Shown in pieces: positions 6,193 through 19,641 of a DNA stretch of 64,000 nt. The translations under genes were made by a program, and so were the position numbers. The notes under the pieces are model-generated. The model searched no databases and was not told where the DNA came from. It saw only the letters and a program-made list of their open reading frames with translations. Origin of the DNA: Aliiroseovarius sp. S1123 (GTDB lineage Bacteria > Pseudomonadota > Alphaproteobacteria > Rhodobacterales > Rhodobacteraceae); assembly GCF_023015885.1 (NCBI RefSeq), contig NZ_JALKBE010000002.1:124001-188000 (forward strand), given 5' to 3'. Positions within the stretch are counted from its first letter, which is position 1. Each line of letters opens with the position of its first letter.

Positions 6193-6564
6193 TTATTCAG
6201 CCGCTTTAGGAAGTTCCGAAGCCGGTGCTGTGTCGATCGAGCAGAACAGCTCGTATATCACTTCCAAGATACGCCGCGGACGATCATCTGTCAGCGAGTA
6301 ATAGATCGTTTTGCCTTCGCGACGCGGCGTCACAAGACCTTCAAGGCGCAGGCGGGCCAACTGTTGCGACACGGCGGCCTGACGGGCGTGCAGCAGCTTT
6401 TCCAGCTCGGTCACGGATTTTTCGCCTGTGACAAGATGGCAGAGGATCATCAAGCGTCCCTCATGGCTGATAGCCTTAAGAAGGGTCGATGCGTCGCACG
6501 CGCTGGTCATCATTTTGTCCAGCTCTTCGTTTGACATGTCTTCCTTTATGACGGGCAGTGCCAT
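6193..6564 (-). CDS. soxR: SoxR/SqrR/BigR-type ArsR-family persulfide-sensing repressor
   Basis: A 123-residue winged-helix ArsR-family protein. Residues 24-90 form the HTH domain (LKAISHEGRLMILCHL, then ARQAAVSQQLARLRLEGLV as recognition region, then REGKTIYYSL as wing). C42 in LCHL and C108 in LFCSI occupy the positions of the cysteine pair that senses persulfide in SqrR and BigR; an extra C23 lies near the N-terminus. Members repress sulfur-oxidation and sulfide-detoxification genes until the cysteines are linked by sulfur. It sits between soxT and soxS on the left arm of the sox locus. Likely targets are the ATTC-N8-GAAT palindromes at 8011, 16700 and 17352. Confidence 0.92.
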   Translation of the reverse strand: MALPVIKEDMSNEELDKMMTSACDASTLLKAISHEGRLMILCHLVTGEKSVTELEKLLHARQAAVSQQLARLRLEGLVTPRREGKTIYYSLTDDRPRRILEVIYELFCSIDTAPASELPKAAE

Positions 6565-6660
6565 TTCAAAGGGTCCTTGTGGTCCATTACTGTTACTGGC
6601 CCCCTAATAATAGGAGGTGGATATTTTTGCAATCGCCGTCGCAGCCAGATGATCAAGTCG

Positions 6661-6704
6661 TGTTCTGGCTGCAATAGCATTGAAACTAAGGCGTTCAGCG
6701 TATC
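6661..6704 (-). promoter_or_regulatory. Leader region between soxS and soxR, with a short inverted repeat
   Basis: The 140-base gap upstream of soxR (6565-6704) contains CAAT-N3-ATTG at 6672-6682 inside a GCAATAG...ATTGAAA context. A related TGCAATAG...ATTGAAT arrangement occurs in the soxS-soxV gap at 7151-7169. This may be a degenerate operator for autoregulation. It does not match the exact ATTC-N8-GAAT pattern, so confidence is low. Confidence 0.25.
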
Positions 6705-7109
6705 TCAGCTTCCGCTCTGATCGTCCGTTGGCGTCACGTAATCGGTGTTCTCAAGCAGCATCTGCTCCAAGAGACCCCAGAAGAAATCTTCACCCGGATA
6801 GCCCTGCAGGCGGGCAATTTCCTTGCCATCTTCGACCAGCAGAAAAGTAGGGGTGAAGACGACGGGTGTCGTCGGTATGACGCCACGCCTTTCTTGTCCA
6901 TCCGATCGCTTCAGGTCGTGCAGAACAACTTTGCGCAGGGGGGCGTATTTGCCTTCTGCGGTTTTCGGATAGATGTCGCCAAGCTCACTTTCCCATTTTG
7001 CGCACCACGCGCAGCCGGGCTCTTCCACCATGATCAATTCGGCTGCCTGTGCGGCAAAAACAAACCCAATCAGGGCAGTAGACAGCAAACTTAAAGTAAC
7101 TTTCCGCAT
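6705..7109 (-). CDS. soxS: Periplasmic thioredoxin SoxS
   Basis: A 134-residue protein with a signal peptide (MRKVTLSLLSTALIGF onward, cleavage near AQAA) and a thioredoxin-like active site GCAWC near mature residue 10, followed by the cis-proline region FTPTFLLVEDG. SoxS keeps the SoxYZ carrier in its reduced, active state in Paracoccus-type systems. ATG 7109 is chosen because it places the signal peptide at the N-terminus; the 25-codon upstream extension is rejected. It is divergent from soxV with an 85-base promoter region between them, the classic soxS/soxV arrangement. Confidence 0.9.
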   Translation of the reverse strand: MRKVTLSLLSTALIGFVFAAQAAELIMVEEPGCAWCAKWESELGDIYPKTAEGKYAPLRKVVLHDLKRSDGQERRGVIPTTPVVFTPTFLLVEDGKEIARLQGYPGEDFFWGLLEQMLLENTDYVTPTDDQSGS

Positions 7110-7124
7110 CACGGAGCCCACTTC

Positions 7125-7175
7125 TTGACAATTGGTTGACCTTCGTCTCATGCAATAGATAAATTGAATATGTTC
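7125..7175. promoter_or_regulatory. Divergent soxS/soxV promoter region with inverted repeat
   Basis: The 85-base soxS-soxV gap contains a TTGACC hexamer at 7136-7141 and TAAATT at 7160-7165 (18-base spacing), a plausible rightward promoter for soxV. An imperfect inverted repeat ATGCAAT-N6-ATTGAAT (7150-7169, one mismatch) covers the -10 region, and GAATATGTTC at 7166-7175 is also near-palindromic. This is where SoxR binds in related loci. The repeat is not the exact ATTC-N8-GAAT seen at three other places in the locus. Confidence 0.4.
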
Positions 7176-7194
7176 TAATTTCAAGGAAGCCCTG

Positions 7195-7932
7195 ATGCTG
7201 GATATATCCTTTGCCGGAGCGGCGCTTGCGGGGCTTTTGTCGTTCTTCTCGCCTTGTATCCTGCCGATGGTGCCGTTCTACCTGTGCTATATGGCCGGTC
7301 TGTCGATGACTGAGTTGACCGGCGAGGGCAAGATCAACCCTGGTGCCCAGCGCAGGCTGGTCATTGCGGCGATTGCGTTTGCATTCGGTGTGACCTCGAT
7401 CTTCATGCTGCTGGGTCTGGGGGCGACGGCCCTCGGGGCGGCGTTTGCGCAGTATCAGCAGGAGCTCAGTTATCTGGGCGCGGCCATTTTGGTGCTCTTC
7501 GGGCTGCATTTTCTGGGCATCATGCGAATCCCTTTCCTGTACCGTGAGGCGCGCCTGGATGGGCCCACACAACCCAGCTCGATCCTCGGCGCCTATTTGA
7601 TGGGGTTGGCATTCGGCTTTGGCTGGACGCCCTGTGTTGGGCCTGCGCTGGCCTCGATCCTGATGATTGCAAGCGGGATGGGGGATCTGTGGCGGGGGAC
7701 GCTTTTGTTGGCAGTGTATGGCCTGTCCATGACGCTGCCCTTCGTGCTCGCGGCGATGTTTGCGCGCCCGTTTCTGGCTTGGGTCGGGCGCAATCGAAAG
7801 TATCTGCCATGGGTCGAGAAGGTCATGGGTGCGATGCTGATCCTGTTTGCAATCTTGATTGTGTCAGGGCAGGTCAACCGGATTGGCCAATGGCTGCTCG
7901 AGGCATTTCCAGTGCTCGGAAGTGTCGGTTAA
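7195..7932 (+). CDS. soxV: SoxV, CcdA/DsbD-type thiol electron transporter
   Basis: A 245-residue polytopic inner-membrane protein of the CcdA family with about six hydrophobic helices. The two redox cysteines are in the repeated motif contexts FFSPCILPMVP (first helix, near residue 21) and GWTPCVGPALAS (near residue 145). It carries electrons from cytoplasmic thioredoxin to the periplasm, where SoxS here (SoxW elsewhere) reduces SoxY. The start ATG 7195 has AAGGAAG just upstream. It heads the rightward sox operon, and no soxW follows it, so SoxS may be its only partner in this locus. Confidence 0.92.
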   Translation: MLDISFAGAALAGLLSFFSPCILPMVPFYLCYMAGLSMTELTGEGKINPGAQRRLVIAAIAFAFGVTSIFMLLGLGATALGAAFAQYQQELSYLGAAILVLFGLHFLGIMRIPFLYREARLDGPTQPSSILGAYLMGLAFGFGWTPCVGPALASILMIASGMGDLWRGTLLLAVYGLSMTLPFVLAAMFARPFLAWVGRNRKYLPWVEKVMGAMLILFAILIVSGQVNRIGQWLLEAFPVLGSVG

Positions 7933-7942
7933 GCGACTTTTC

Positions 7943-7967
7943 TGACTGGTTTGGTCAGTATTTTAAA
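7943..7967 (+). terminator. Weak hairpin after soxV
   Basis: CTGAC-N7-GTCAG at 7943-7959 is followed by a T-rich run. It lies in the 156-base gap between soxV and soxX. It could attenuate read-through from soxV or be fortuitous, since the stem is only five base pairs. Confidence 0.3.
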
Positions 7968-8010
7968 ACAACAGAACCGGAAGCGCCTCATTTGGCGCAA
8001 CTTAATAATA

Positions 8011-8026
8011 ATTCAAATAACGGAAT
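8011..8026. promoter_or_regulatory. SoxR/SqrR-type operator candidate upstream of soxX
   Basis: The sequence is exactly ATTC-N8-GAAT, the palindrome I recall as the binding pattern of SqrR-type persulfide sensors. It is embedded in a second dyad TCAAAT (8013-8018) / ATTTGA (8025-8030). It lies 63 bases before the soxX start in the soxV-soxX gap, the second known SoxR control point in other sox loci. Two more exact copies occur at 16700 and 17352. Confidence 0.6.
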
Positions 8027-8088
8027 TTGATGTTGCGAAACTTGGTTCACCTGCGTAGTTTGGCCGCACAACGGTTTTGGGAGGAAAC

Positions 8089-8565
8089 ATGAAGCGGACA
8101 ACGATCACGCTTTGCACCTTGCTTATAGCAGGGCTGGGAGCGGCAAACGCCGAGACGGTGGCACCCACCGCCGTCGCATTCGAAGAAGGGGCCGTGGCCC
8201 AATCGCTGACCGGCGCTGCAGGTGATCCTGTAGAAGGCGCAAAGGTCGTATCGACAAAGTCGCAGGGCAACTGCGTTGCGTGTCACGAAATTACAGATCT
8301 GGCTGACGTGCCGTTTCACGGCGAAGTTGGTCCTATGCTGGACGGGGCAGGTGACCGCTGGAGCGAAGCAGAGCTACGTGGAATTCTTGTAGATGCCAAG
8401 ATGACATTCGAAGATTCGATGATGCCATCTTTCTACAAGACCGAAGGTTTTATTCGCCTTGGCAATGCCTACACCGGCAAGGCCCATGAAGGTGACGTCG
8501 AACCACTGCTGAGTGCTCAGCAGATCGAAGATGTTGTTGCCTATCTGATGACGCTCAAAGACTGA
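8089..8565 (+). CDS. soxX: SoxX, monoheme cytochrome c subunit of SoxAX
   Basis: A 158-residue exported c-type cytochrome. The signal peptide is MKRTTITLCTLLIAGLGAANA; heme attaches at CVACH (C62-H66), and the C-terminal half has methionines (DSMMPSFY) suitable as the axial ligand. SoxX pairs with SoxA to join the sulfane sulfur of thiosulfate to the SoxY cysteine oxidatively. ATG 8089 is used because it follows GGGAGGAAAC; the four-codon upstream extension is rejected. It opens the soxXYZA block. Confidence 0.93.
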   Translation: MKRTTITLCTLLIAGLGAANAETVAPTAVAFEEGAVAQSLTGAAGDPVEGAKVVSTKSQGNCVACHEITDLADVPFHGEVGPMLDGAGDRWSEAELRGILVDAKMTFEDSMMPSFYKTEGFIRLGNAYTGKAHEGDVEPLLSAQQIEDVVAYLMTLKD

Positions 8566-8605
8566 GCGGATCGGGGCATAGAAATACACTCACAGGAGAC
8601 TAGAG

Positions 8606-9022
8606 ATGAAATTCACTCGACGTGATGCTCTGGCACTTGGGCTCGGCGCGACCGCCGTTGCCATGTTGCCGATGCGCGCACTGGCTGCTGCAGACGAGGC
8701 CGTCGCGGCCTTCACGGGCGGCGCTGAAACCGGCGAAGGTGGGATCACCCTGACCGCGCCGGAAATCGCAGAGAACGGCAACACTGTTCCAGTTTCGGTC
8801 GACGCCCCCGGTGCCGTATCGATTCTGCTGTTGGCTGCCGGCAACCCGACCCCGGGTGTCGCTCAGTTCACCTTCGGTGAAGCCGCCGGCTCGCAGTCGG
8901 CATCGACCCGTATTCGTCTGGCTGGCACGCAAGACGTTGTTGCTATTGCCAAAATGGCAGATGGAAGCTTCGTAAAAGCGTCGTCGACCGTGAAAGTCAC
9001 CATCGGCGGCTGCGGCGGCTAA
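8606..9022 (+). CDS. soxY: SoxY, sulfur-carrier subunit
   Basis: A 138-residue periplasmic protein. The N-terminus has a twin-arginine-type signal (TRRDAL at residues 4-9, then a hydrophobic stretch to about residue 28). The extreme C-terminus is GGCGG with Cys136, the swinging arm that carries the pathway intermediates. It works as a heterodimer with SoxZ, encoded 17 bases downstream. SoxZ lacks its own signal and is probably exported with SoxY by Tat. Confidence 0.96.
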   Translation: MKFTRRDALALGLGATAVAMLPMRALAAADEAVAAFTGGAETGEGGITLTAPEIAENGNTVPVSVDAPGAVSILLLAAGNPTPGVAQFTFGEAAGSQSASTRIRLAGTQDVVAIAKMADGSFVKASSTVKVTIGGCGG

Positions 9023-9039
9023 ATTAGGAGATCTGAGAT

Positions 9040-9369
9040 ATGGCAAAAGGTGCAAAACCCCGCGTAAAGGTCCCCAAGACGGCTGCTGCCGGCGAGGTCG
9101 TGACCCTGAAAACCCTGATCAGCCACAAGATGGAATCGGGTCAGCGCAAGGATAAAGAGGGCAACCTCATCCCGCGTTCGATCATCAACCGTTTCACATG
9201 CGAGCTGAACGGCAAGATGGTTATCGATGTAACGCTGGAACCAGCGATTTCGACCAACCCCTATGTAGAATTCGATGCCAAAGTCGACGAAGCCGGTGAG
9301 TTCAAATTCACTTGGTATGACGACGATGGTGATGTCTACGAGACGACAAAGCCGATCGCGATCGCTTGA
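9040..9369 (+). CDS. soxZ: SoxZ, SoxY partner
   Basis: A 109-residue immunoglobulin-fold protein with no signal peptide and no cysteine beyond one in the core (RFTCELNG). The pattern fits SoxZ throughout: PRVKVPKTAAAGEVVTLKTLISHKMESG in broken form, NPYVEFDAKV, and the C-terminal strand FKFTWYDDDGD. It forms the SoxYZ carrier and presents the SoxY arm to SoxAX, SoxB and SoxCD. It is preceded by AGGAG and sits tightly between soxY and soxA. Confidence 0.95.
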   Translation: MAKGAKPRVKVPKTAAAGEVVTLKTLISHKMESGQRKDKEGNLIPRSIINRFTCELNGKMVIDVTLEPAISTNPYVEFDAKVDEAGEFKFTWYDDDGDVYETTKPIAIA

Positions 9370-9393
9370 GGTCAGCGCAGGGAGGAGAACATA

Positions 9394-10242
9394 ATGAAAA
9401 AAGGCATCGCAGCACTTGTAGCTGCCTCGACCATCTTCGGGGCAGCCGCCGCAACAGCCGATGAAAGCGCTGAGCTCACCATCAATGGCGAGATCGACAT
9501 TGTAACCAAAACCGCAGCACCTGCGCATCTTTCGGATGCGCTGGACGAGGTTCTTTCAGGTTGGCGTTTCCGGTCGGATCAGACCCAGGAAATGCAGATG
9601 GATGACTTCGACAATCCCGGTATGCTGGGCGTCGAGGAAGGCATCGAAATCTGGAACACCGTGGACGGTTCGAAAGGAAAATCCTGTGCGGATTGTCACG
9701 GCGAGCCCGAGGAAATGGCAGGCGTGAAAGCCGTGTATCCGAAGTGGAATGATCAGGCCGAGACGGTCCATACCCTTCAGATGGCGGTCAACAATTGCCG
9801 TGAAAACGCAATGGGCGCCGAGCCGTGGAAGTATGACGCGACCGCCGCGATCAATGTGGAAGCCTTGCTGGCCTCTGTGTCGCGTGGGATGCCCGTGAAC
9901 GTGGCCATTGACGGCCCGGTCGAGGCAATGTGGGAGATGGGCAAAGAGCTTTACTATACCCGCACTGGCCAGCTGGAAATGAGCTGTGCAAATTGTCACG
10001 AAGACAACTATGGCAACATGATCCGCGCCGACCACCTGTCGCAGGGTCAAATCAACGGTTTCCCGACGTATCGTCTGAAAAATGCCAAGCTGAACGGGGT
10101 GCATTCGCGCTTCAAAGGCTGTGTACGTGACACGCGCGCCCACACCTACAACCCGGGTTCGGAAGAGTTTATCGCTCTGGAACTGTATGTCGCCTCGCGC
10201 GGCAATGGTCTGTCGGTCGAAGGCCCGTCGGTTCGCAACTAA
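9394..10242 (+). CDS. soxA: SoxA, diheme cytochrome c of SoxAX
   Basis: A 282-residue exported protein (signal to about residue 22) with two heme sites, CADCH at 98-102 and CANCH at 198-202. The KGCVRD cysteine (C243) is placed as the cysteine/persulfide axial ligand of the catalytic heme. C135 (NNCREN) is the usual additional conserved cysteine. With SoxX it couples thiosulfate to SoxY. It has the diheme form typical of Paracoccus and Rhodovulum. A strong terminator follows the stop codon. Confidence 0.95.
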   Translation: MKKGIAALVAASTIFGAAAATADESAELTINGEIDIVTKTAAPAHLSDALDEVLSGWRFRSDQTQEMQMDDFDNPGMLGVEEGIEIWNTVDGSKGKSCADCHGEPEEMAGVKAVYPKWNDQAETVHTLQMAVNNCRENAMGAEPWKYDATAAINVEALLASVSRGMPVNVAIDGPVEAMWEMGKELYYTRTGQLEMSCANCHEDNYGNMIRADHLSQGQINGFPTYRLKNAKLNGVHSRFKGCVRDTRAHTYNPGSEEFIALELYVASRGNGLSVEGPSVRN

Positions 10243-10250
10243 ATCATAGA

Positions 10251-10284
10251 CCCCGCCTGGCGCGTGCCTGGCGGGGTTTTCTTT
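10251..10284 (+). terminator. Rho-independent terminator between soxA and soxB
   Basis: An 11-base-pair stem with one T-T mismatch (10251-10261 with 10266-10276, GCGT loop) is followed by TTTTCTTT. It splits the sox operon into soxXYZA and soxB onward, either ending part of the transcripts or setting different protein levels. Confidence 0.8.
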
Positions 10285-10294
10285 ACTCGAACAC

Positions 10295-10310
10295 ATTCAA
10301 ACCTCGGCAT
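10295..10310. promoter_or_regulatory. Degenerate operator candidate upstream of soxB
   Basis: ATTC-N8-GCAT differs by one base from the ATTC-N8-GAAT pattern found three times in this locus. It lies right after the soxA terminator and 43 bases before soxB, where a new promoter would be needed if the terminator is efficient. Weak evidence. Confidence 0.25.
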
Positions 10311-10352
10311 GGGTGAGGCGTGCAGGGGGATGAAAACCAAGGATAACCGCTC

Positions 10353-12050
10353 ATGATTTCTCGCCGCGACTTTCTTCAGGTTTCGATGGCTGCGTCTGCG
10401 CTTTACGGCACGTCGGGCTTTGGCAACTGGGCCAAACTGGCTGCCCAGCAGGCATTGACGCAAGACGATCTTCTGAAGTTCGACACGTTTGGCAATGTCA
10501 GCCTGATCCACATCACTGACATCCACGCCCAGTTGAAACCGATCTATTTCCGCGAGCCCGAGATTAATCTGGGTGTCGGCGCGGCCAACGGCCAGATGCC
10601 GCACGTGACTGGCGCGGATTTCCGTAAGGTTTACGGGATCGAGGATGGCTCGCCCAATGCGTATGCTCTGACCTATAACGATTTTACCTCGCTGGCGCAG
10701 GCCTATGGCAAGGTCGGTGGCATGGACCGCGTAGCGACCGTCGTGAACGCCATTCGCGCCGAGCGCCCCGATGCGCTGCTGTTGGACGGCGGTGACACGT
10801 GGCACGGCTCGTATACCTGTCACCACACAGAAGGTCAGGACGTGGTCAACGTGATGAACGCGCTTAAGCCCGATGCGATGACCTTCCACTGGGAATTCAC
10901 GCTGGGCACGGAGCGTGTTGAAGAGATCGTTGGCAATTTGCCTTTCGCCGCTCTCGGCCAGAACATTTTTGACGCCGAGTGGGACGAGCCTGCCGAACTG
11001 TTCAAACCTTACAAGTTCTTTGAACGCGGTGGCGTGAAGGTGGCCGTGATCGGTCAGGCCTTCCCCTATATGCCGATCGCCAACCCGCGCTGGATGTTCC
11101 CGGAATACTCGTTCGGTATCCGTGACGAAAACATGCAAGCGATGGTCGACGAAGTGCGCGCCGCCGGGGCTGAACTGGTCGTTGTTCTCAGCCACAACGG
11201 CTTTGACGTCGACAAGAAAATGGCCACCAAAGTGACGGGCATCGACGTGATCCTGTCGGGCCACACCCATGACGCGCTGCCCGAGCCGGTACAGGTCGAG
11301 CAAACCTTCATCATCGCCTCGGGCTCGAACTCGAAATTTGTCAGCCGCGTCGACTTGGACGTGCGCGATGGCAAGATGATGGGCATCCGCCACAAGCTGA
11401 TCCCGATCTTCGCAGACGTCATTACGCCGGATGCCACGATCACCAAGCTGATTGACGACCAGCGCGCGCCCTATAAGGCCGAGCTGGAAGAGGTCATCGG
11501 CCACACCGACTCGCTTCTGTATCGTCGCGGTAACTTCAATGGCAGCTGGGATGACCTGATCTGTGACGCGCTGATCAATGAACGCGAGGCTGACATTGCC
11601 ATGTCGCCCGGCGTGCGTTGGGGGCCGTCGATCCTGCCCGGTCAGGCGATCACCCGCGAAGACATCTGGAACGTAACCTCGATGTCTTATGGCGAGGCGT
11701 ACCGGACTGAAATGACAGGGGAATTCATCCACACCATTTTGGAAGACGTGGGCGACAACCTGTTCAACCCTGATCCCTATTATCAGCAGGGCGGCGACAT
11801 GGTGCGCATCGGTGGCATGGGCTATCGCATCGACATCTCGAAGCCGCAGGGCGAACGCATCACCGACATGACCCTTCTGAAAACCGGCGAGAAGATCGAC
11901 CCCTCGAAGACCTATGTGGTTGCGGGCTGGGCCTCGGTCAACGAAGGCACGGAAGGGCCGCAGATCTGGGATGTGGTCGAAAGCCATATCAAGAAACAAG
12001 GCACCATCAAGCTGGATCCGAACAACTCGGTCCAGGTGGTGGGCGCGTAA
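10353..12050 (+). CDS. soxB: SoxB, dimanganese sulfate thiohydrolase
   Basis: A 565-residue Tat-exported protein (SRRDFLQVS at residues 3-11) of the 5'-nucleotidase/metallophosphatase family. Metal-ligand motifs appear in order: DIHAQ near residue 54, LDGGDTWHGS near 147-156, a FHWEFTLG block near 180, LSHNGFD near 283, and GHTHDALPEP near 305. The C-terminal nucleotidase domain follows. SoxB cuts sulfate off the SoxY-bound thiosulfonate. Length and motifs match SoxB closely. It is 82 bases upstream of soxC. Confidence 0.96.
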   Translation: MISRRDFLQVSMAASALYGTSGFGNWAKLAAQQALTQDDLLKFDTFGNVSLIHITDIHAQLKPIYFREPEINLGVGAANGQMPHVTGADFRKVYGIEDGSPNAYALTYNDFTSLAQAYGKVGGMDRVATVVNAIRAERPDALLLDGGDTWHGSYTCHHTEGQDVVNVMNALKPDAMTFHWEFTLGTERVEEIVGNLPFAALGQNIFDAEWDEPAELFKPYKFFERGGVKVAVIGQAFPYMPIANPRWMFPEYSFGIRDENMQAMVDEVRAAGAELVVVLSHNGFDVDKKMATKVTGIDVILSGHTHDALPEPVQVEQTFIIASGSNSKFVSRVDLDVRDGKMMGIRHKLIPIFADVITPDATITKLIDDQRAPYKAELEEVIGHTDSLLYRRGNFNGSWDDLICDALINEREADIAMSPGVRWGPSILPGQAITREDIWNVTSMSYGEAYRTEMTGEFIHTILEDVGDNLFNPDPYYQQGGDMVRIGGMGYRIDISKPQGERITDMTLLKTGEKIDPSKTYVVAGWASVNEGTEGPQIWDVVESHIKKQGTIKLDPNNSVQVVGA

Positions 12051-12132
12051 GTCATTGAACACCCGCCGTCGGGCCTAAGGGGCAGGGCGGCGGGACACTT
12101 TTAGCCAAACAGCCAAATAGGAGGTTTGACAT

Positions 12133-13413
12133 ATGTCGACTGAAACCAAAGGCACCGGGACCTCGCGTCGCGGTTTCCTGAAAGGGGCCGCTGCAACGGG
12201 TGCTGCCCTGGGCGCTGCCGGTGCTGCCCGCGCCGAAGGCGATCCGCTGATCACCGAAGTACAGGAATGGGCATCCGGTCTGGGCGAGGGCGTCGACGCC
12301 ACGCCTTACGGTATGCCGATCGAGTTCGAAGGCGACGTGATCCGTCGCAACGTGGAATGGCTGACCGCCGACACGATTTCCTCGATCAACTTCACGCCGA
12401 TCCACGCGCTGGATGGCACGATCACCCCGCAGGGCTGCGCGTTCGAACGCCACCACTCGGGCGCGATCACGCTGAAGAAAGAAGACTACCGTCTGATGAT
12501 CAACGGTCTGGTCGATACGCCGCTGGTGTTCACCTATGAAGACCTTGAGCGGTTCCCGCGTGCGCAGCAGACCTTCTTCTTGGAATGTGCGGCCAATACC
12601 GGCATGGAATGGGCGGGCTCGCAGCTGAACGGCGCGCAGTACACCCACGGCATGATCCACAACATGGAATATACCGGCGTCAGCCTGCGCACTCTGCTGG
12701 AAGAGGCTGGTCTGGACGCTGCTGGCGACCTGAAGGACAAATGGGTCTATGTCGAAGGCGCGGATGCCTCGTCGAATGGCCGCTCGATCCCGATGGAGAA
12801 GGCGCTGGATGACTGTATGGTCGCGTTCAAAGCCAACGGCGAAGCCCTGCGCATGGAGCATGGCTATCCGGTCCGTCTGGTTGTTCCCGGTTGGGAAGGC
12901 AACATGTGGGTCAAATGGCTGCGGCGCATCGAAGTGATGGATAAGCCGGTTGAAAGCCGCGAAGAGACCTCGAAATACACCGACACGCTGGAAGACGGTA
13001 CCTCGCGCAAGTGGACGTGGGCGATGGACGCGAAATCCGTTGTCACCAGCCCCAGCCCGCAAATGCCGATCAAGCACGGCAAAGGCCCGCTGGTCATCAC
13101 CGGTCTGGCATGGTCGGGCCGCGGTGCAATCACCGCTGTCGACGTGTCGCTGGATGGTGGTGTGACCTGGCAAGAGGCCCGTCTGGCCGAGCCGGGCAAG
13201 CCGATGGCGCTGACCCGCTTCTATCTGGACATCAACTGGGATGGATCCGAGATGTTCGTTCAATCGCGTGCGATGGACGACACTGGCTATGTTCAGCCCA
13301 CCAAGGCGCAACTGCGCGAAGTGCGTGGCCTGAACTCGATCTATCACAACAACTGCATCCAGACGTGGCACGTCAACGCAAACGGGGAGGCAAACAATGT
13401 CGAAGTTTCCTAA
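12133..13413 (+). CDS. soxC: SoxC, molybdenum subunit of sulfane dehydrogenase
   Basis: A 426-residue protein of the sulfite-oxidase fold with a Tat signal (SRRGFLKGAAA at residues 11-21). C152 in FFLECAANTG is the molybdenum-coordinating cysteine. The C-terminal Mo-co dimerisation domain includes the MPIKHG and AWSGRGAI segments. With SoxD it oxidises the SoxY-bound sulfane sulfur, giving six extra electrons per thiosulfate, so the host should oxidise thiosulfate fully to sulfate without sulfur globules. Its last 17 bases overlap soxD, suggesting coupled translation. Confidence 0.95.
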   Translation: MSTETKGTGTSRRGFLKGAAATGAALGAAGAARAEGDPLITEVQEWASGLGEGVDATPYGMPIEFEGDVIRRNVEWLTADTISSINFTPIHALDGTITPQGCAFERHHSGAITLKKEDYRLMINGLVDTPLVFTYEDLERFPRAQQTFFLECAANTGMEWAGSQLNGAQYTHGMIHNMEYTGVSLRTLLEEAGLDAAGDLKDKWVYVEGADASSNGRSIPMEKALDDCMVAFKANGEALRMEHGYPVRLVVPGWEGNMWVKWLRRIEVMDKPVESREETSKYTDTLEDGTSRKWTWAMDAKSVVTSPSPQMPIKHGKGPLVITGLAWSGRGAITAVDVSLDGGVTWQEARLAEPGKPMALTRFYLDINWDGSEMFVQSRAMDDTGYVQPTKAQLREVRGLNSIYHNNCIQTWHVNANGEANNVEVS

Positions 13414-14482
13414 ATTCCTGATGGCAGCATCTGTTGCCGCTTTGACCGCCGCCCCCGCGATGGCTGAAAAGCTGGGCCTTGGACGCGCCGCAACGGACGC
13501 CGAGATCGCCGCGTGGAACCTTGATGTGTTCCCGGACGGATCGAACCTGCCTGCAGGTAAGGGCGATGTTTGGACCGGTGAAGAAGTCTTCGCGGAAGCC
13601 TGTGCGGTGTGCCACGGCGAGTTCGCCGAAGGTGCGGGCAACTGGCCGAAACTGGCTGGTGGTGCCGACACGCTTGACCACGAAGATCCGCTGAAGACGG
13701 TTGGTTCCTACTGGCCCTACCTGTCGACGACCTTCGACTATGTGCGCCGCTCGATGCCGTTTGGCGCGGCTGGTACACTGTCGGATGACGATGTCTATGC
13801 AATCGTGGCTTATATCCTTTACTCGAACGACTTGGTCGACGACGATTTCGTCCTGTCTAAAGAGACCTTCCTGGATGTCGCAATGCCGAACGCCGAAGGC
13901 TTCATCGTTGATGATCGTGAAGCGACCGAGTACGGCACATACACCAACCGCTGCATGAGCGATTGTAAGTCGGGCGCGGTCGAGATCACCACCACCGTGG
14001 TGTTCCCGGGCGACCCGAACTCGGGCACGGATGCGACGCCGATCAGCCAGGCTGTGATGGGGACGGCTGCAGCCGCTGCCGCGCCAGCCGAAGCTGAAGT
14101 CACCGAGGCCGCAGCAGAAGAGCCTGCCGCCGAAGAAGCCGCACCTGCGATGGCGTTAGATGCCGAACTGGTCGCCAAGGGCGAAAAGGTCTTCAAGAAA
14201 TGTAAGGCCTGCCACAAGGTTGGCGACGGCGCCAAAAACGGCACCGGCCCGATCCTGACGGGTGTCTATGGTCGCGCCGCGGGTACGGTTGACGGGTTCA
14301 AGTACTCGAAGCCGATGCTGGCTGCCGCAGAAGGTGGTCTGGTTTGGGACGAAGCCGAACTGGCAGCCTATTTGGCCAACCCGAAGAAGTACATGAAGGG
14401 CACCAAAATGTCCTTTGCGGGTCTGAAGAAAGACGCTGACATCGCCGCGATCCTGGAATTCCTGAAGTCGCACAGTCAGTAA
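13397..14482 (+). CDS. soxD: SoxD, diheme cytochrome c subunit of sulfane dehydrogenase
   Basis: A 361-residue exported cytochrome with two domains. The first heme is CAVCH at 69-73, the second CKACH at 269-273 in a domain resembling mitochondrial-type cytochrome c (TGPILTGVYGRAAG, then KGTKMSFAGL with the Met ligand). The two are joined by an Ala/Glu/Pro-rich linker at about 222-252. The signal peptide ends near AMA (residue 23). The start ATG 13397 lies inside soxC. SoxD takes electrons from SoxC to the periplasmic cytochrome pool. Confidence 0.95.
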   Translation: MSKFPKFLMAASVAALTAAPAMAEKLGLGRAATDAEIAAWNLDVFPDGSNLPAGKGDVWTGEEVFAEACAVCHGEFAEGAGNWPKLAGGADTLDHEDPLKTVGSYWPYLSTTFDYVRRSMPFGAAGTLSDDDVYAIVAYILYSNDLVDDDFVLSKETFLDVAMPNAEGFIVDDREATEYGTYTNRCMSDCKSGAVEITTTVVFPGDPNSGTDATPISQAVMGTAAAAAAPAEAEVTEAAAEEPAAEEAAPAMALDAELVAKGEKVFKKCKACHKVGDGAKNGTGPILTGVYGRAAGTVDGFKYSKPMLAAAEGGLVWDEAELAAYLANPKKYMKGTKMSFAGLKKDADIAAILEFLKSHSQ

Positions 14483-14507
14483 TCTGACCGCTTATAATGA
14501 TGAGAAG

Positions 14508-14540
14508 CGGGCGCTGCAGAGGATGCAGCGCCCGTTCTGT
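14508..14540 (+). terminator. Hairpin terminator after soxD
   Basis: A perfect 11-base-pair stem (14508-14518 with 14524-14534) with a five-base loop is followed by TTCTGTT. It separates soxCD from soxE. The next 85 bases are AT-rich, with a self-complementary ATGCATGCAT at 14565-14574, and may hold a soxE promoter. Confidence 0.65.
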
Positions 14541-14625
14541 TAATGCGCAACATAATTTCCGCTTATGCATGCATTTGTATATGATTATTATTGAGTGGAT
14601 GAGCCTTGCCGTTTAAAGTGTCCGC

Positions 14626-15336
14626 ATGAACTGGATTAGAAACGCTGCGATTGGGCTGACGGTTGCGATATGCGCCTCAACGCCTTCTTTTTCAAATGAA
14701 ATCGGCAATGCTGCTGATGGTGAAAAACTTTGGGGTGAGTGCAAATCCTGCCACGCGATTGGTAAGGATGCGAAGAACCGGGTTGGCCCACACCTAAACG
14801 GAATTTTTGGACGCCGCGCTGGATCGGAAGAGGGGTTCAATTACTCCAAGGGGCTGGCGCGCATGGGCAAAGATGGCCTGATTTGGGAGTTTGATCTTCT
14901 GGATCGCTATATCGAAAACCCCAAGGCTTTTGCGTCCGACACGCGCATGTCCTATCGTGGTTTGAAAGACGAACAAAAGCGGGCTGACCTGCTGGCGTTC
15001 CTGCGTCGGTACTCGGATAATCCGGGCGATATTCCGGAAGCAGCGCCCACCGTGGCGGGCACTGACCACGACGTTGATCCGTCCATTTTGGCCATTCAAG
15101 GCGATCCGGAATATGGCGAATACCTGTCATCGGAATGCACGTCCTGTCACCAGTTGACGGGCGATAATGACGGCATTCCCGGCATTATCGGCTGGCCCGC
15201 CGAAGATTTCGTGATCGCCATGCATGCTTACAAGGACAAGTACCGCCCGCATCCCGTGATGCAGATGATGGCGGGACGTTTGTCCAATGACGAAATTGCG
15301 GCGTTGGCAGCTTACTTTGAAGCGGTCGAACCGTAA
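14626..15336 (+). CDS. soxE: SoxE, diheme c-type cytochrome
   Basis: A 236-residue exported cytochrome. The signal peptide runs to about residue 23, with hemes at CKSCH (39-43) and CTSCH (171-175). The first half is a class-I cytochrome c (GPHLNGIFGRRAGS, SDTRMSYRGL with the Met ligand). The second half is shorter and resembles cytochrome subunits of flavocytochrome c sulfide dehydrogenase. Next to soxF it is likely the electron-accepting partner of the flavoprotein. It is the fourth heme protein of the locus. Confidence 0.88.
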   Translation: MNWIRNAAIGLTVAICASTPSFSNEIGNAADGEKLWGECKSCHAIGKDAKNRVGPHLNGIFGRRAGSEEGFNYSKGLARMGKDGLIWEFDLLDRYIENPKAFASDTRMSYRGLKDEQKRADLLAFLRRYSDNPGDIPEAAPTVAGTDHDVDPSILAIQGDPEYGEYLSSECTSCHQLTGDNDGIPGIIGWPAEDFVIAMHAYKDKYRPHPVMQMMAGRLSNDEIAALAAYFEAVEP

Positions 15337-15411
15337 TGCACGATACATAGATTTAACAAATCTATGGCACGCGAAGGCTGTGCGTTTTCACGGCCAATCA
15401 GGGAGGAAGAT

Positions 15412-16686
15412 ATGAAGATTAACAGACGTTTATTTATGGGAGGGGCGGCCGCCGGTGCTGCGGCAACAACTCTTGCTGCGCCGATGGTGCATGCGGCTGG
15501 CCACGGCAAGCCGAAGGTTGTCGTGGTTGGCGGCGGTGCAGGTGGTGCGACGGCTGCGCGTTATATTGCAAAGGATTCCAAGGGCGAGATCGAGGTCACC
15601 TTGGTGGAACCCAGCCGCAGCTATTACACCTGCTTCTTCTCGAACCTGTATATGGCGGGTTTCCGCGAGCTGGGGTCGATCGCGCACAGCTATGGCAAGC
15701 TGGCGTCGGACTACGGCATCAACGTCGTGCATGACTGGGCCATTGGCATCGACCGCGAGGCACGCACTGTGTCGCTTGCTGGTGGGGCGACGCTGAACTA
15801 TGACCGTCTAGTTCTGTCGCCGGGCATCGACTTTGTCGATGGCGCTGTTGATGGCTGGGACGTGACCCATCAGAACGCCATGCCGCACGCCTATAAGGCA
15901 GGTTCGCAATCTGAGCTTCTGAAAGCACAGGTCGAGGCCATGCCAGAAGGGGGCACCTTCGCAATGGTGGCGCCGCCCAACCCGTTCCGCTGCCCTCCTG
16001 GGCCGTATGAGCGGATTTCGATGATCGCGCACATCCTGAAGGAAAAGAACCCGACGGCGAAAATCATCATTGCGGACCCGAAAGAGAAGTTCTCGAAGAT
16101 GGGACTGTTTCAGGACGGCTGGTCGCGTCACTATGACGGTATGATCGACTGGATTGGTGGCGACTTTGGCGGTGGCAATGTCTCGGTCAATCCGCATGAC
16201 ATGACGGTGACCATCGACGGCGAAGTCACCAAGGTCGACGTCTGTAACGTTATCCCGGCCATGAAAGCGGGCAAGATCTGTGACATGGCGGGCATCACCG
16301 AGGGCAACTGGGCGCCGGTCAACCCGCACACGATGCAAAGCCGCGTGGATGAAAATATTCACGTGTTGGGCGATGCCTCGTCGCAAGGTGACATGCCGAA
16401 ATCGGGCTTTGCGGCCAACAGCCAGGCAAAAGTCGCCGCAATGGCCGTACGTTCGGCGCTGACCGGGTCGAAGCTGTTCCCGGCCAAATTCACCAACACC
16501 TGTTGGTCGCTGATCAACGACAATGATGGCGTGAAAGTGGGCGCAAGCTATGAAGCTACGGACGAAAAGATCGCCAAGGTCGACGGCTTCATCAGCCAGG
16601 TTGGAGAAGACGCGGAATTGCGTCAGGCCACCTACGAGGAAAGCGTCGGCTGGTATGCCGGGATTACCTCGGACATGTTTGGCTGA
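15412..16686 (+). CDS. soxF: SoxF, FAD-dependent sulfide dehydrogenase flavoprotein
   Basis: A 424-residue flavocytochrome c sulfide-dehydrogenase flavoprotein (FccB/SoxF). A hydrophobic export signal (INRRLFMGGAAAGAAATT) is followed by the FAD-binding GGGAGGATAA near residue 45. Cysteines that can form the redox disulfide include YTCFF and the FRCPPGP and KICDMAG contexts. The C-terminal FCSD domain (TCWSLINDNDGVKVGA) is present. It oxidises sulfide or stimulates thiosulfate oxidation in the periplasm with SoxE. ATG 15412 is used because GGGAGGAAG lies just upstream; a 16-codon extension is rejected. Confidence 0.92.
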   Translation: MKINRRLFMGGAAAGAAATTLAAPMVHAAGHGKPKVVVVGGGAGGATAARYIAKDSKGEIEVTLVEPSRSYYTCFFSNLYMAGFRELGSIAHSYGKLASDYGINVVHDWAIGIDREARTVSLAGGATLNYDRLVLSPGIDFVDGAVDGWDVTHQNAMPHAYKAGSQSELLKAQVEAMPEGGTFAMVAPPNPFRCPPGPYERISMIAHILKEKNPTAKIIIADPKEKFSKMGLFQDGWSRHYDGMIDWIGGDFGGGNVSVNPHDMTVTIDGEVTKVDVCNVIPAMKAGKICDMAGITEGNWAPVNPHTMQSRVDENIHVLGDASSQGDMPKSGFAANSQAKVAAMAVRSALTGSKLFPAKFTNTCWSLINDNDGVKVGASYEATDEKIAKVDGFISQVGEDAELRQATYEESVGWYAGITSDMFG

Positions 16687-16691
16687 TTTCC

Positions 16692-16720
16692 TTGCTAATA
16701 TTCGCGCGGGCGAATATGTT
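16692..16720 (+). promoter_or_regulatory. Promoter with embedded SoxR-type operator upstream of the DUF302 gene
   Basis: TTGCTA at 16692-16697 and TATGTT at 16715-16720 are spaced by exactly 17 bases. Covering that spacer and the start of the -10 is the dyad ATATTCG-N6-CGAATAT (16698-16717), which contains ATTC-N8-GAAT at 16700-16715. A repressor bound here would directly block RNA polymerase. It is the second exact copy of the motif in the locus. Confidence 0.6.
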
Positions 16721-16730
16721 TAGATCAACG

Positions 16731-16757
16731 CGGGGTCCGGTTGTCCGGACCCCGTTT
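16731..16757 (+). terminator. Perfect hairpin between soxF and the DUF302 gene
   Basis: A perfect 10-base-pair stem (16731-16740 with 16745-16754) with a TTGT loop is followed by TTT. It probably ends the soxF transcript. Because it lies downstream of the promoter at 16692-16720, it would also form the first element of the DUF302 leader. Confidence 0.65.
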
Positions 16758-16805
16758 CATGCAAGGGGCTTTGCGCGAACGGCCCTCAATTCAGGAGGAA
16801 AACTT

Positions 16806-17267
16806 ATGCGCAATATTCTTGGAACGGCTCTTGTTGCCGTGGCCGCACTGACCGCCCCAGCTTTTGCTGACGGTCACGGTAAACAGATGAGCGATCACGC
16901 CATCACTTATGCGTTCAATGGTGACTTCGATGACGCGACCTTTGCGGTTGAAACGGCCATTGTGGGGCAGGGGTTGGTCATCGACTATGTCAGCCACACT
17001 GGCGATATGCTTGAACGCACCAAGGGCGATGTGGGTTCGGACGTGACGATTTTTGAAGCCGCGGACATTTTCCTGTTCTGCTCGGCCAAAATCAGCCGCG
17101 AAGTGATGGAGGCAGACGCCGCCAACATCTCGTTCTGTCCCTACAGCATCTTCGTGACCGACACGAATGGCGAGGTGCGCATTGGATATCGCACCTATCC
17201 AGAAGGCGAAATGCAGAAAGTCCAAGCACTTCTGGATGGAATCGTACAGGAAGCAATCGCCGAGTAA
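16806..17267 (+). CDS. DUF302 domain exported protein
   Basis: A 153-residue protein with a clear signal peptide (to about AFA, residue 20) and one DUF302 domain. The domain is recognised by the order SFxGDF-like start, VSHTGDMLERT, FLFCSAKISREVME and CPYSIFVTD. DUF302 proteins are small periplasmic or membrane-attached proteins often found in sulfur-oxidation and sulfide-detoxification clusters; their chemistry is unknown. Two cysteines (FCSA near 95 and FCPY near 113) could bind heme, metal or sulfur. The start ATG 16806 follows AGGAGGAAAAC. It has its own promoter/operator and terminator, so it is a separate unit between soxF and the permease genes. Confidence 0.8.
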   Translation: MRNILGTALVAVAALTAPAFADGHGKQMSDHAITYAFNGDFDDATFAVETAIVGQGLVIDYVSHTGDMLERTKGDVGSDVTIFEAADIFLFCSAKISREVMEADAANISFCPYSIFVTDTNGEVRIGYRTYPEGEMQKVQALLDGIVQEAIAE

Positions 17268-17291
17268 CGTCGATTTGGCTTGAAAACCAAG

Positions 17292-17325
17292 GCCCCGCGT
17301 GTCGCAATGATGCGCGGGGCTTTTG
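17292..17325 (+). terminator. Terminator after the DUF302 gene
   Basis: A perfect 8-base-pair GC stem (17292-17299 with 17313-17320) is followed by TTTTGCTT. It lies 25 bases after the DUF302 stop. Confidence 0.8.
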
Positions 17326-17351
17326 CTTGACGCAGGGTCGAGAGAAAAAAC

Positions 17352-17367
17352 ATTCAAAAAAGTGAAT
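17352..17367. promoter_or_regulatory. SoxR-type operator upstream of the YeeE/persulfide dioxygenase operon
   Basis: ATTC-N8-GAAT within a perfect dyad ACATTCA-N6-TGAATGT (17350-17369). TTGACG at 17327-17332 can serve as a -35 element with the operator over the -10. It precedes the permease, dioxygenase and sulfurtransferase genes, the same set controlled by BigR in Xylella and Agrobacterium. This is the strongest of the three copies. Confidence 0.65.
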
Positions 17368-17437
17368 GTAACTCTTGTCCTGCCCGAATGGGCGTCCTAA
17401 GTTTAACACGCGAACAGAAATCCTGGTGAGGCATGAC

Positions 17438-17872
17438 ATGATCGAAACTGAATTCACACCGCTGGCAGCATCGCTCGGAGGTGCCTTGATAGGCTTGGCC
17501 TCGGTGCTTTTGATGTGGGTGCGCGGCAACATTTTGGGGGCGACCGGCATTCTGACTGGCTTCATGCAGCCCAGCAGCTCGGCCGACTGGGCGTGGCGTG
17601 CGGCTATTCTGGCCGGAATGGTAACTGGCCCGCTTGTCTATCTGTTCATCGCTGGCGAGTTTCCCGCGATCCAAGTGCCCGTCAGCACGCTGTCCATGAT
17701 CGTCGGCGGCGTCATTGTCGGGATCGGCGTGACCTACGGGTCGGGCTGTACGTCTGGCCACGGGGTTTGCGGCATGTCGCGCCTGTCTCCGCGCAGCTTC
17801 GTCGCCACACTTAGCTTCATGGCGGGTATCACCGTCATGGTGTTTGTCACCCGCCACATCTTTGGCCTGTAA
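17438..17872 (+). CDS. YeeE/YedE permease, N-terminal-half subunit
   Basis: A 144-residue membrane protein with about four hydrophobic helices, half the size of a full YeeE transporter. It carries the family signature GSGCTSGHGVCG near residues 104-115, with two cysteines that can relay sulfur. The companion gene 12 bases downstream encodes the other half. Start ATG 17438 is chosen over an in-frame ATG at 17375, which would add a hydrophilic stretch not seen in the family. The pair is a standard part of bigR/blh sulfur operons and probably imports or moves a sulfur compound. Confidence 0.85.
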   Translation: MIETEFTPLAASLGGALIGLASVLLMWVRGNILGATGILTGFMQPSSSADWAWRAAILAGMVTGPLVYLFIAGEFPAIQVPVSTLSMIVGGVIVGIGVTYGSGCTSGHGVCGMSRLSPRSFVATLSFMAGITVMVFVTRHIFGL

Positions 17873-17884
17873 GGAGAGACCGAT

Positions 17885-18328
17885 ATGCAGTTGATCGTCA
17901 TCTACGTTATCGGCCTGATCTTCGGCCTTGGTATCTCGATTTCTGGCATGGCCAACCCTGCCAAAGTCCTGAACTTCTTCGACTTTGCAGGCATTTGGGA
18001 CCCAAGCCTGATCTTCGTGATGGGTGCTGCGATTGTGGTCACGGCGCCTGGCTATTTCCTGGTGCTGAAACGCCCCAAACCGGTCTTCGGCAATGGCTTT
18101 ACCTTGCCGGGCACCAAACTGATTGATCGCCGTCTGATCGGCGGGTCCTTCACCTTTGGTCTGGGCTGGGGTCTGGCCGGCTTCTGCCCCGGTGCCTCGC
18201 TTCCCGTGCTGTCGACCGGCAACCCGGACGTTCTGATCTTCACGGCCTCATTCATCGTGGGCATTTTCATCGCCCGCTTCATGATCCAGCGGAGCGCGCA
18301 ACAGCGCGACGCCGCAACTACAAGCTAA
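17885..18328 (+). CDS. YeeE/YedE permease, C-terminal-half subunit (DUF6691 type)
   Basis: A 147-residue membrane protein with about four helices. It carries the family GMANPAKVLNFFD block near residues 18-32 and GLAGFCPGASLP near residues 98-109, where the cysteine lies in a substrate-path position. It is translated from its own AGGAG site and should form a heteromeric transporter with the preceding half. The split form is usual for YeeE genes next to ETHE1-like dioxygenases. Confidence 0.85.
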   Translation: MQLIVIYVIGLIFGLGISISGMANPAKVLNFFDFAGIWDPSLIFVMGAAIVVTAPGYFLVLKRPKPVFGNGFTLPGTKLIDRRLIGGSFTFGLGWGLAGFCPGASLPVLSTGNPDVLIFTASFIVGIFIARFMIQRSAQQRDAATTS

Positions 18329-18367
18329 CTCCGGATCCCAATCCGGGCCCCAAGGAAAGGACATGTC

Positions 18368-19255
18368 ATGACTGACTATCCCGTAAACACCGACCTGATC
18401 CCCGAAGTGAAAGCCTTCTTCGAGCCGGATTCGAACACGATTTCCTATGTGGTCAAAGATCCGACCTCGGATGCCTGTGCGGTGATCGACAGCGTCATGG
18501 ACATCGATTACGCCGCTGGCCGGATTTCGCACGAGCACGCGGATGAGATCATCGACTATATCCAGTCCAATGGGCTAAAGCTTGAGTGGCTGATCGAAAC
18601 CCATGTTCACGCGGATCACCTGTCGGCAGCGCCCTATATCCAGCAAAAGCTGGGCGGCAAGATCGGCATCGGCAGCCAGATCACCGTTGTGCAGGACGTG
18701 TTCGGAAAGGTCTTCAATGAAGGCACCGAATTCCAGCGCGACGGCAGCCAGTTCGACGCCTTGTTCGAGGACGGTGACACCTACAAAATCGGCAATATGG
18801 ACGTATTTGCCATGCATACGCCGGGCCATACGCCCGCCTGTATGGTGCATGTGGTCGGGAATGCCGCATTCGTGGGCGACACACTGTTCATGCCGGATGG
18901 GGGCTCGGCCCGTGCCGATTTCCCGGGTGGGGATGCGGGCATCCTATATGACTCGATCCAGAAGGTTCTGGCATTGCCGGACGAAACCCGTCTATTCATG
19001 TGCCACGATTACGGCCCCAATGGCCGTGACATTCAGTGGGAGACCACCGTGGTAGATGAAAAAGAGCACAACATTCACGTTGGTGCCGGAAAGACTCGCG
19101 AAGAGTTCGTGAAGTTCCGTACCGAACGGGACGCTCAACTGGATATGCCACGCCTGATTATTCCTTCGCTTCAGGTCAACATGCGTGCGGGCGAAATGCC
19201 CCCCGCAGATGAGGACGGAAAAACCTTCCTGAAGGTTCCCGTTAACGCGCTTTAA
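18368..19255 (+). CDS. ETHE1/Blh-like persulfide dioxygenase (MBL fold)
   Basis: A 295-residue metallo-beta-lactamase-fold enzyme. The iron-ligand motif THVHADH occupies residues 78-84, with further ligands expected in HTPGHTP (near 152-158), FVGDTLF (near 171) and MCHDYG (near 214). Such enzymes use one Fe(II) to oxidise glutathione persulfide to sulfite. In bigR operons the homologue Blh sits with the same permease halves and a DUF442 domain, here encoded separately 9 bases downstream. It likely removes cytoplasmic persulfide produced during sulfide or thiosulfate use. Confidence 0.9.
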   Translation: MTDYPVNTDLIPEVKAFFEPDSNTISYVVKDPTSDACAVIDSVMDIDYAAGRISHEHADEIIDYIQSNGLKLEWLIETHVHADHLSAAPYIQQKLGGKIGIGSQITVVQDVFGKVFNEGTEFQRDGSQFDALFEDGDTYKIGNMDVFAMHTPGHTPACMVHVVGNAAFVGDTLFMPDGGSARADFPGGDAGILYDSIQKVLALPDETRLFMCHDYGPNGRDIQWETTVVDEKEHNIHVGAGKTREEFVKFRTERDAQLDMPRLIIPSLQVNMRAGEMPPADEDGKTFLKVPVNAL

Positions 19256-19264
19256 GAGGTTCCA

Positions 19265-19594
19265 ATGCAAACCAAGAAACTGGATGACACCATCACGGTG
19301 TCGCATCAGATTGCGGTCGAAGATGTGAAAGCCATCCGCGATCAGGGATTTACCGTCCTGATGTGCAACCGCCCGGATGGTGAGGATCCCGGTCAGCCGT
19401 CATGGGAAGACGTCAAGACCGAGGCCGAGGCTGCGGGCTTGAAGGCCGTCTTCCTGCCGGTGGCATCGCGCGAAGACGCCATCGCCATGAAAGAGCCGTT
19501 CCAGGCTGCGATGGAAGCTGCGGACGGCCCGGTTTTTGCCTATTGCCGGACCGGTACGCGCTGCGAAATTTTGTGGACCCTCGCAAACAGTTAA
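19265..19594 (+). CDS. DUF442 / TIGR01244-family sulfurtransferase-phosphatase-like protein
   Basis: A 109-residue protein of the DUF442 fold, which is related to protein tyrosine phosphatases and works as a sulfurtransferase in Blh fusions. The active-site loop YCRTGTRCE places the nucleophile at C94; C100 in the same loop is an extra cysteine where many relatives have serine. In some proteobacteria this domain is fused to the MBL dioxygenase; here it is a separate gene 9 bases downstream. It probably hands persulfide sulfur to or from the dioxygenase. Confidence 0.82.
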   Translation: MQTKKLDDTITVSHQIAVEDVKAIRDQGFTVLMCNRPDGEDPGQPSWEDVKTEAEAAGLKAVFLPVASREDAIAMKEPFQAAMEAADGPVFAYCRTGTRCEILWTLANS

Positions 19595-19641
19595 TCCGGT
19601 CTGGTATCTGCCAACCGGTTTGAAATAAACGGAAATTTGCC

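Follow-up and report, generated by a model that had tools for sequence, protein, structure and literature searches.

ATTC-N8-GAAT sites as predicted operators of a SoxR-type sensor at sulfur genes of Aliiroseovarius sp. S1123

Persulfide sensors and the ATTC-N8-GAAT sites of the sox locus

In various species, regulators of the SqrR class have been reported in the neighbourhood of sqr, sox, pdo, rhd, SoxT and PmpAB genes (PMC12423496), and ATTC-N8-GAAT has been published as the deduced recognition site of SqrR (PMC9774250). In Rhodobacter capsulatus, sqr and a gene for a rhodanese are under SqrR repression, and SqrR was described as having no control over the persulfide dioxygenase (PDO) gene rcc02976, the PDO-rhodanese fusion gene rcc01824 and the gene for flavocytochrome c sulfide dehydrogenase (FCSD) (PMC9995734). 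The SoxR proteins of Hyphomicrobium denitrificans, Paracoccus and Pseudaminobacter are repressors of sox genes that respond through a sulfur bridge between two cysteines (PMC10451225, PMC12423496), and the term ATTC is absent from the main text of both papers. The present analysis concerns ATTC-N8-GAAT palindromes in a 64,000-nucleotide stretch of Aliiroseovarius sp. S1123 (the window; contig NZ_JALKBE010000002.1, positions 124,001 to 188,000), in which a soxR gene and a sox cluster are followed by genes for a DUF302 protein, PmpA- and PmpB-like permeases and a PDO. Sites of this class have been published before, and those described here are ordinary in kind; the interest lies in the genes that they precede.

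A first-pass annotation, made from the sequence alone, had placed three exact copies of the palindrome and one copy with a single mismatch between genes of this locus, and all four were recovered as claimed. The exact matches, listed without a strand, lie at 8011..8026 (operator 1, beginning 78 bp upstream of soxX), 16700..16715 (operator 2, upstream of the DUF302 gene) and 17352..17367 (operator 3, beginning 86 bp upstream of the PmpA-like gene), while the one-mismatch copy, ATTC-N8-GCAT, lies at 10295..10310 upstream of soxB. The half-sites thus keep a fixed spacing and stand upstream of the genes concerned. In addition, a probable degenerate operator that the annotation had overlooked, AATTGAATATGTTCTAATT, was found in the soxS-soxV gap at 7162..7180 (no strand); its core, TGAATATGT, was the same in 13 aligned rows of the genus, and an exact ATTC-N8-GAAT stood in the same gap in three related loci (L038, L039 and L048). 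The three exact sites are very probably docking sites of a sulfur-sensing repressor, as predicted from their sequence and conservation. We further consider it likely that ATTC-N8-GAAT serves as the operator of the local SoxR, an ArsR-family repressor of the SqrR/BigR type, through which one sensor would co-control the sox genes and persulfide removal.

Conservation of the sites and the candidate regulator

The sites were compared in 80 of 107 loci of SoxF relatives, with flanks of up to 10 kb, the genus being represented by the window and 13 Aliiroseovarius loci (L007-L019); loci with the gene missing or its start unmatched were excluded from the counts, and at least two soxV matches (L062 and L071) look like misplaced gene calls. 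The site upstream of soxX carried the strongest signal. It was exact in 60 of 66 loci, and in 64 when up to one mismatch was allowed, being present in all 13 loci of the genus and in 47 of the 53 outside it. The 61 sites contained 44 different spacers, and the eight control spacings gave 2, 0, 0, 0, 0, 0, 0 and 0 matches in the 66 loci. In the same 61 sites, the six bases after GAAT (8027-8032) were also conserved at five positions: T (98%), T (97%) and G (74%) at the first three, T (93%) at the fifth and G (89%) at the sixth. At soxB, the exact GAAT form was found in 19 of 68 loci, and 56 of them had a site once a single mismatch was tolerated; within the genus only 1 of 13 loci was exact, the common form being ATTC-N8-GCAT, the half-sites of which were 0.99 identical across 13 genus rows. 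Exact sites upstream of soxC were confined to seven of 66 loci (L026, L030, L032, L033, L035, L038 and L039), all outside the genus (0/14 within it), three of them with a tandem pair.

The persulfide branch showed another distribution. Upstream of the DUF302 gene, the exact site was kept in 13 of 39 loci, with 12 different spacers, comprising 12/14 in the genus and 1/25 outside it. Similarly, the site before the PmpA-like gene was exact in 13 of 17 loci, that is, 13/14 in the genus and 0/3 outside it, and when the best 30 of 79 genomes of the family that carry this gene were surveyed, own genome included, 3 of the 29 others had it. These distributions suggest that both sites are, for the most part, particular to the genus. 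The proposal that one sensor joins periplasmic thiosulfate oxidation to cytoplasmic persulfide detoxification is qualified by this, as only the soxX operator and a weaker one at soxB are widespread.

The candidate regulator is an ArsR winged-helix protein (PF01022, 37.4 bits against a cut-off of 22), and its best matches among solved structures were 6o8k-6o8o (E 1.3e-37), of which 6o8l and 6o8n are R. capsulatus SqrR (PMC8879271). C42 and C108, which the annotation had said to be retained, are both present and coincide in the alignment with the cysteine pair of the solved SqrR; 54 of 57 related SoxR proteins have both, C108 not being covered in the other three. Moreover, residues 61-78 (RQAAVSQQLARLRLEGLV), the putative recognition helix, are identical to those of SqrR. 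With the BigR equivalog model NF040642 the protein scored 94.1 bits against a cut-off of 155, which places it on the SqrR/SoxR side and not with BigR. A search of the genome at E 0.01 returned no second SqrR-type protein, SoxR being the sole match, and SoxR was present in all 21 genomes of the genus.

The mechanism that we favour borrows its release step, the sulfur bridge, from SqrR and from H. denitrificans SoxR (PMC9995734, PMC10451225, PMC12423496). When sulfane sulfur is lacking, a SoxR dimer would sit on the operators and block soxXYZA and, through the weaker sites, also soxB and its own soxRS and soxV promoters. Accumulating persulfide or polysulfide would then form a sulfur bridge between C42 and C108, whereupon SoxR would dissociate from its operators and expression would begin. 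In Aliiroseovarius, the same operator would act at the DUF302 gene, at the PmpAB-PDO-sulfurtransferase-SulP operon and at a distant SQR-like gene, a second YeeE pair and a rhodanese gene, by which means a single sensor could induce sulfur import and persulfide removal at the same time as the periplasmic oxidation of thiosulfate.

Sites across the genome and competing explanations

The whole genome (3.23 Mb) contained 37 exact ATTC-N8-GAAT sites, and spacings of 5, 6, 7, 9, 10 and 11 gave 131 matches together, or 21.8 each (168 matches with N8 included), which makes the genome-wide excess at N8 modest, about 15 sites above the roughly 22 expected. Outside the window there are 34 sites, 12 of which fell inside strong reading frames as called by a crude gene caller. 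Five distant sites, chosen by the look of the site and its neighbours and not at random, were followed by gene search, with the own genome included in the counts. Three of them belong to sulfur genes: the SQR-like gene had the upstream site in 8 of 11 cases (8/8 at 92% identity or more, the three without it being 39-67% identical), the second YeeE pair in 7 of 9, and the gap between uvrA and a divergent rhodanese gene in 17 of 21, one stretch (L191) that ends at a contig edge being scored there as a miss. The other two stand before nuoA (C11:623149; L003/L367) and a gene resembling isocitrate dehydrogenase (idh-like; C15:273430; L134/L368). The names SQR-like and idh-like rest on matches under curated cut-offs; an identity as leuB was rejected for the latter, an Iso_dh gene, since NCBIfam ranked isocitrate dehydrogenase first, with all models under their cut-offs.

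Identity to the reference row was then scored in nine genus alignments, with seven rows each for DUF302 and SQR (a truncated stretch, L147, and three distant relatives being excluded from the latter) and 20 of 21 for rhodanese/uvrA. Half-sites were 0.93-1.00 identical and spacers 0.51-0.85, and the contrast between them ranked first at soxB, nuoA and idh, second at soxX and DUF302, and fifth at rhodanese and the YeeE pair.

In the rhodanese-uvrA gap (L187), the ATTC site is followed on the uvrA side by a GTTC-N7-GTTC box that resembles the alphaproteobacterial LexA box. Since this box is set apart and closer to uvrA, the two are distinct elements, and LexA was rejected as the binder of the ATTC site. 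Other sites were seen 27 bp before a gene with EF-hand matches (C11:14439; L118), kept in the one relative found (L361), and 18 bp before a gene of the TsoY family (C17:178881, NF047644; L004/L362). Two further intergenic sites were not conserved, the exact motif being absent from 5/5 matching stretches of relatives at C11:684055 and from 2/2 at C14:98050; 14 relative stretches were placed by interpolation, and L355 (C11:684055), L350-L353 (C14:98050, one flank) and L360 (C11:14439) were uninformative.

Several observations weigh against the reading of ATTC-N8-GAAT as the SoxR operator of a sulfur regulon. Two non-sulfur genes keep the site within the genus, nuoA in 19 and the idh-like gene in 15 of 21 genomes. 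The first-pass annotation had named many unrelated intergenic hits across the genome as evidence against its single regulon, and these conserved non-sulfur sites touch that point. The bare number of exact sites is within chance, and the control spacings were not empty at soxC (2 and 3 of 66) or at DUF302 (2 and 1 of 39). The contrast between half-sites and spacers ranked only 14/117 for PmpA and 22/157 for SQR, because the spacer is conserved there too. Two loci of the genus (L015 and L019) have no DUF302 site, and L019 has no PmpA site either. A further, weaker SoxR-like match occurs in 8 of 21 genus genomes, where it may provide a second candidate regulator. Where the fetched stretch held no soxR, 7 of 10 loci still had the soxX site, versus 53 of 56 where it did (Fisher p 0.04); the link between the two thus appears weak, although soxR could be encoded at another place in the genomes concerned. 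Furthermore, promoters were not placed with confidence: a promoter scan called none at 16600-17500 and none at soxX, and the hexamers were read by eye. Directly downstream of operator 1 lie TTGCG, which is conserved, and TAGTT, which is largely so; the soxX site may therefore exert its effect from a position immediately upstream of the –35 element, which would be unusual for simple occlusion. Finally, YgaV binds the katG promoter without an ATTC-N8-GAAT site (PMC9774250), so that SqrR-class regulators can also bind other DNA.

The likeliest of the alternatives is that two regulators share these half-sites, SoxR acting at the sulfur sites and an unrelated protein at nuoA and the idh-like gene, and perhaps at others. 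Both are non-sulfur genes, and the nuoA site, which sits upstream of a TTGACC box, has the flanks GCATTC...GAATGC in most genus rows, unlike the sulfur sites. It was also found in none of 60 family genomes outside the genus (18 SoxR-less, 2 weakly matching and 40 SoxR-bearing), a sample drawn from 140 genomes with nuoA in which one stretch had only 161 bases; SoxR is thus present in 40 of these genomes without it. Nevertheless, half-sites and N8 spacing are identical in both groups of sites, and, SoxR being present in 21/21 genus genomes, the nuoA site was never seen without SoxR in the sample. On balance, we rate two regulators at somewhat under an even chance. The idh-like site adjoins a strongly conserved block, TTGTATTCCATTGTATAC, that resembles the site of another regulator. 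The converse proposal, in which SoxR in Aliiroseovarius would be a wider redox regulator acting on nuo and the idh-like gene in addition to sox, PmpAB-PDO, SQR-like, YeeE and rhodanese genes, we advance only tentatively; if true, it would tie the level of sulfane sulfur to the production and use of NADH.

A narrower alternative concerns operator 2, which might act at the end of the soxF transcript instead of controlling the DUF302 gene. A stable hairpin (16731..16754, + strand, fold z –3.2), not called a terminator by the scan, does lie between the site and the DUF302 gene, and it may mark either the end of the soxF transcript or the start of the DUF302 transcript. However, the half-sites are fixed over 12 different spacers, and operator 2 is flanked by TTGCTA and TATGTT at 17 bp, an arrangement kept as TTGC(C/T)A-N17-TATGTT in 6 of 7 aligned rows, which suggests a promoter with its transcript start before the hairpin. 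Each of the two hexamers matches the usual one at 4/6 positions, which leaves them under the threshold of the promoter scan, and our guess is that a DUF302 transcript from them would start just before the hairpin. A role at the soxF end is accordingly unlikely.

Still less probable is that another sulfur-responsive regulator binds the sites and that SoxR itself recognizes different DNA. The binding of SoxR here is a prediction from sequence, and the soxX site does occur in most of the loci that lack soxR in the fetched stretch; against this stand the identity of the deduced SqrR site (PMC9774250), the identity of residues 61-78 to SqrR and the single SqrR-type protein in the genome.

As to chance palindromes of no regulatory meaning, to which we give almost no credence, the bare count (at least three exact matches in 15 of 100 shuffles of the window, hence not significant, against an expectation of 1.24 per 64-kb window) and the modest genome-wide excess would allow them, whereas the fixed half-sites with drifting spacers in 60/66, 13/39 and 13/17 loci, the near absence of control spacings and the lack of conservation at the two unrelated intergenic sites led us to reject them, the soxX comparison alone already contradicting chance. 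With one mismatch allowed, the window held 11 matches, fewer than the shuffle mean of 25, and about 0.02 exact matches are expected from base composition in the 1,268 intergenic bases of 6193-21384.

All in all, the sites of the first-pass annotation are confirmed; its reading is largely right but only partly supported as to the regulon, whose predicted set is wider than one sulfur locus and reaches beyond sulfur genes.

Gene content and relation to known systems

Gene calls were based on Pfam and NCBIfam, and soxYZABCD were named by order and by conservation in relatives. On the minus strand lie soxR (6193..6564), the ArsR-family regulator with C42 and C108, matched by Pfam HTH_5 and under the cut-off of the NCBIfam BigR model, and soxS (6705..7109), a thioredoxin-like gene under the Thioredoxin_2 cut-off that was named by position and adjoins soxR in many related loci. 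The remaining genes are on the plus strand. They begin with soxV (7195..7932), of the DsbD/CcdA type by domain match, followed by soxX, soxY, soxZ and soxA (8089..10242), of which soxX has a cytochrome c domain, and by soxB, soxC, soxD, soxE and soxF (10353..16686), with soxE and soxF called by Pfam. The last of these encodes FCSD and so lies inside the sox cluster. The DUF302 protein (16806..17267; PF03625) has an N-terminus that looks signal-like to the eye. Next come the PmpA-like and PmpB-like half-size YeeE permeases (17438..18328), called by domain and NCBIfam matches, with the halves assigned after PMC11582611, then the PDO and a separate BLH-type sulfurtransferase (18368..19594; NF040641 and PF04273) and a SulP-family permease (19642..21384; NCBIfam and Pfam matches). 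The dioxygenase and the next small protein matched positions 140-423 and 2-104 of the bifunctional Blh model NF040641 separately, each under the full-length cut-off, which indicates a Blh split into two genes; their order is the reverse of that in the fusion model.

Clusters with soxRSVWXYZABCD genes have been reported in Sulfitobacter (PMC11034169), where soxW stands between soxV and soxX, whereas the corresponding gap here (7933-8088) is too small for it. As in the BigR operon (PMC5823870), where a SqrR-type sensor controls a Blh-type sulfurtransferase/dioxygenase, such a sensor would act on Blh here, but Blh is split and a genome search at E 0.01 revealed no dedicated BigR gene. As with the SoxR of H. 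denitrificans, Paracoccus and Pseudaminobacter (PMC10451225, PMC12423496), soxR adjoins the sox cluster; unlike in H. denitrificans, whose set includes shdr genes, the putative set here takes in PmpAB-PDO, DUF302 and unlinked genes. No such regulon appeared among the best-ranked titles and abstract beginnings of a mostly open literature, which is no proof of its absence. What is added is evidence, at the level of operators, that a single SoxR may unite these gene sets in one genus and that nuoA and the idh-like gene may belong to them, with ten candidate promoter regions named, those two being the unexpected ones. The comparison thereby illustrates a way in which a single persulfide sensor could couple the periplasmic oxidation of thiosulfate to the import of sulfur and the removal of persulfide in the cytoplasm. 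The distribution of the sites is also suggestive of a chronology, with the soxX operator shared by many genera of the family and the DUF302/persulfide branch belonging mostly to one genus; whether a regulon grows by gaining operators thus becomes a testable question.

The closest comparison is with R. capsulatus SqrR, with which the system shares the motif, residues 61-78 and both cysteines, and whose known targets have putative counterparts here in the SQR-like and rhodanese genes. Unlike in R. capsulatus, a site here precedes the PDO operon, and soxF, the FCSD gene, lies inside the sox cluster; this apparent rewiring is the interesting part, because R. capsulatus SqrR controls neither PDO nor FCSD genes.

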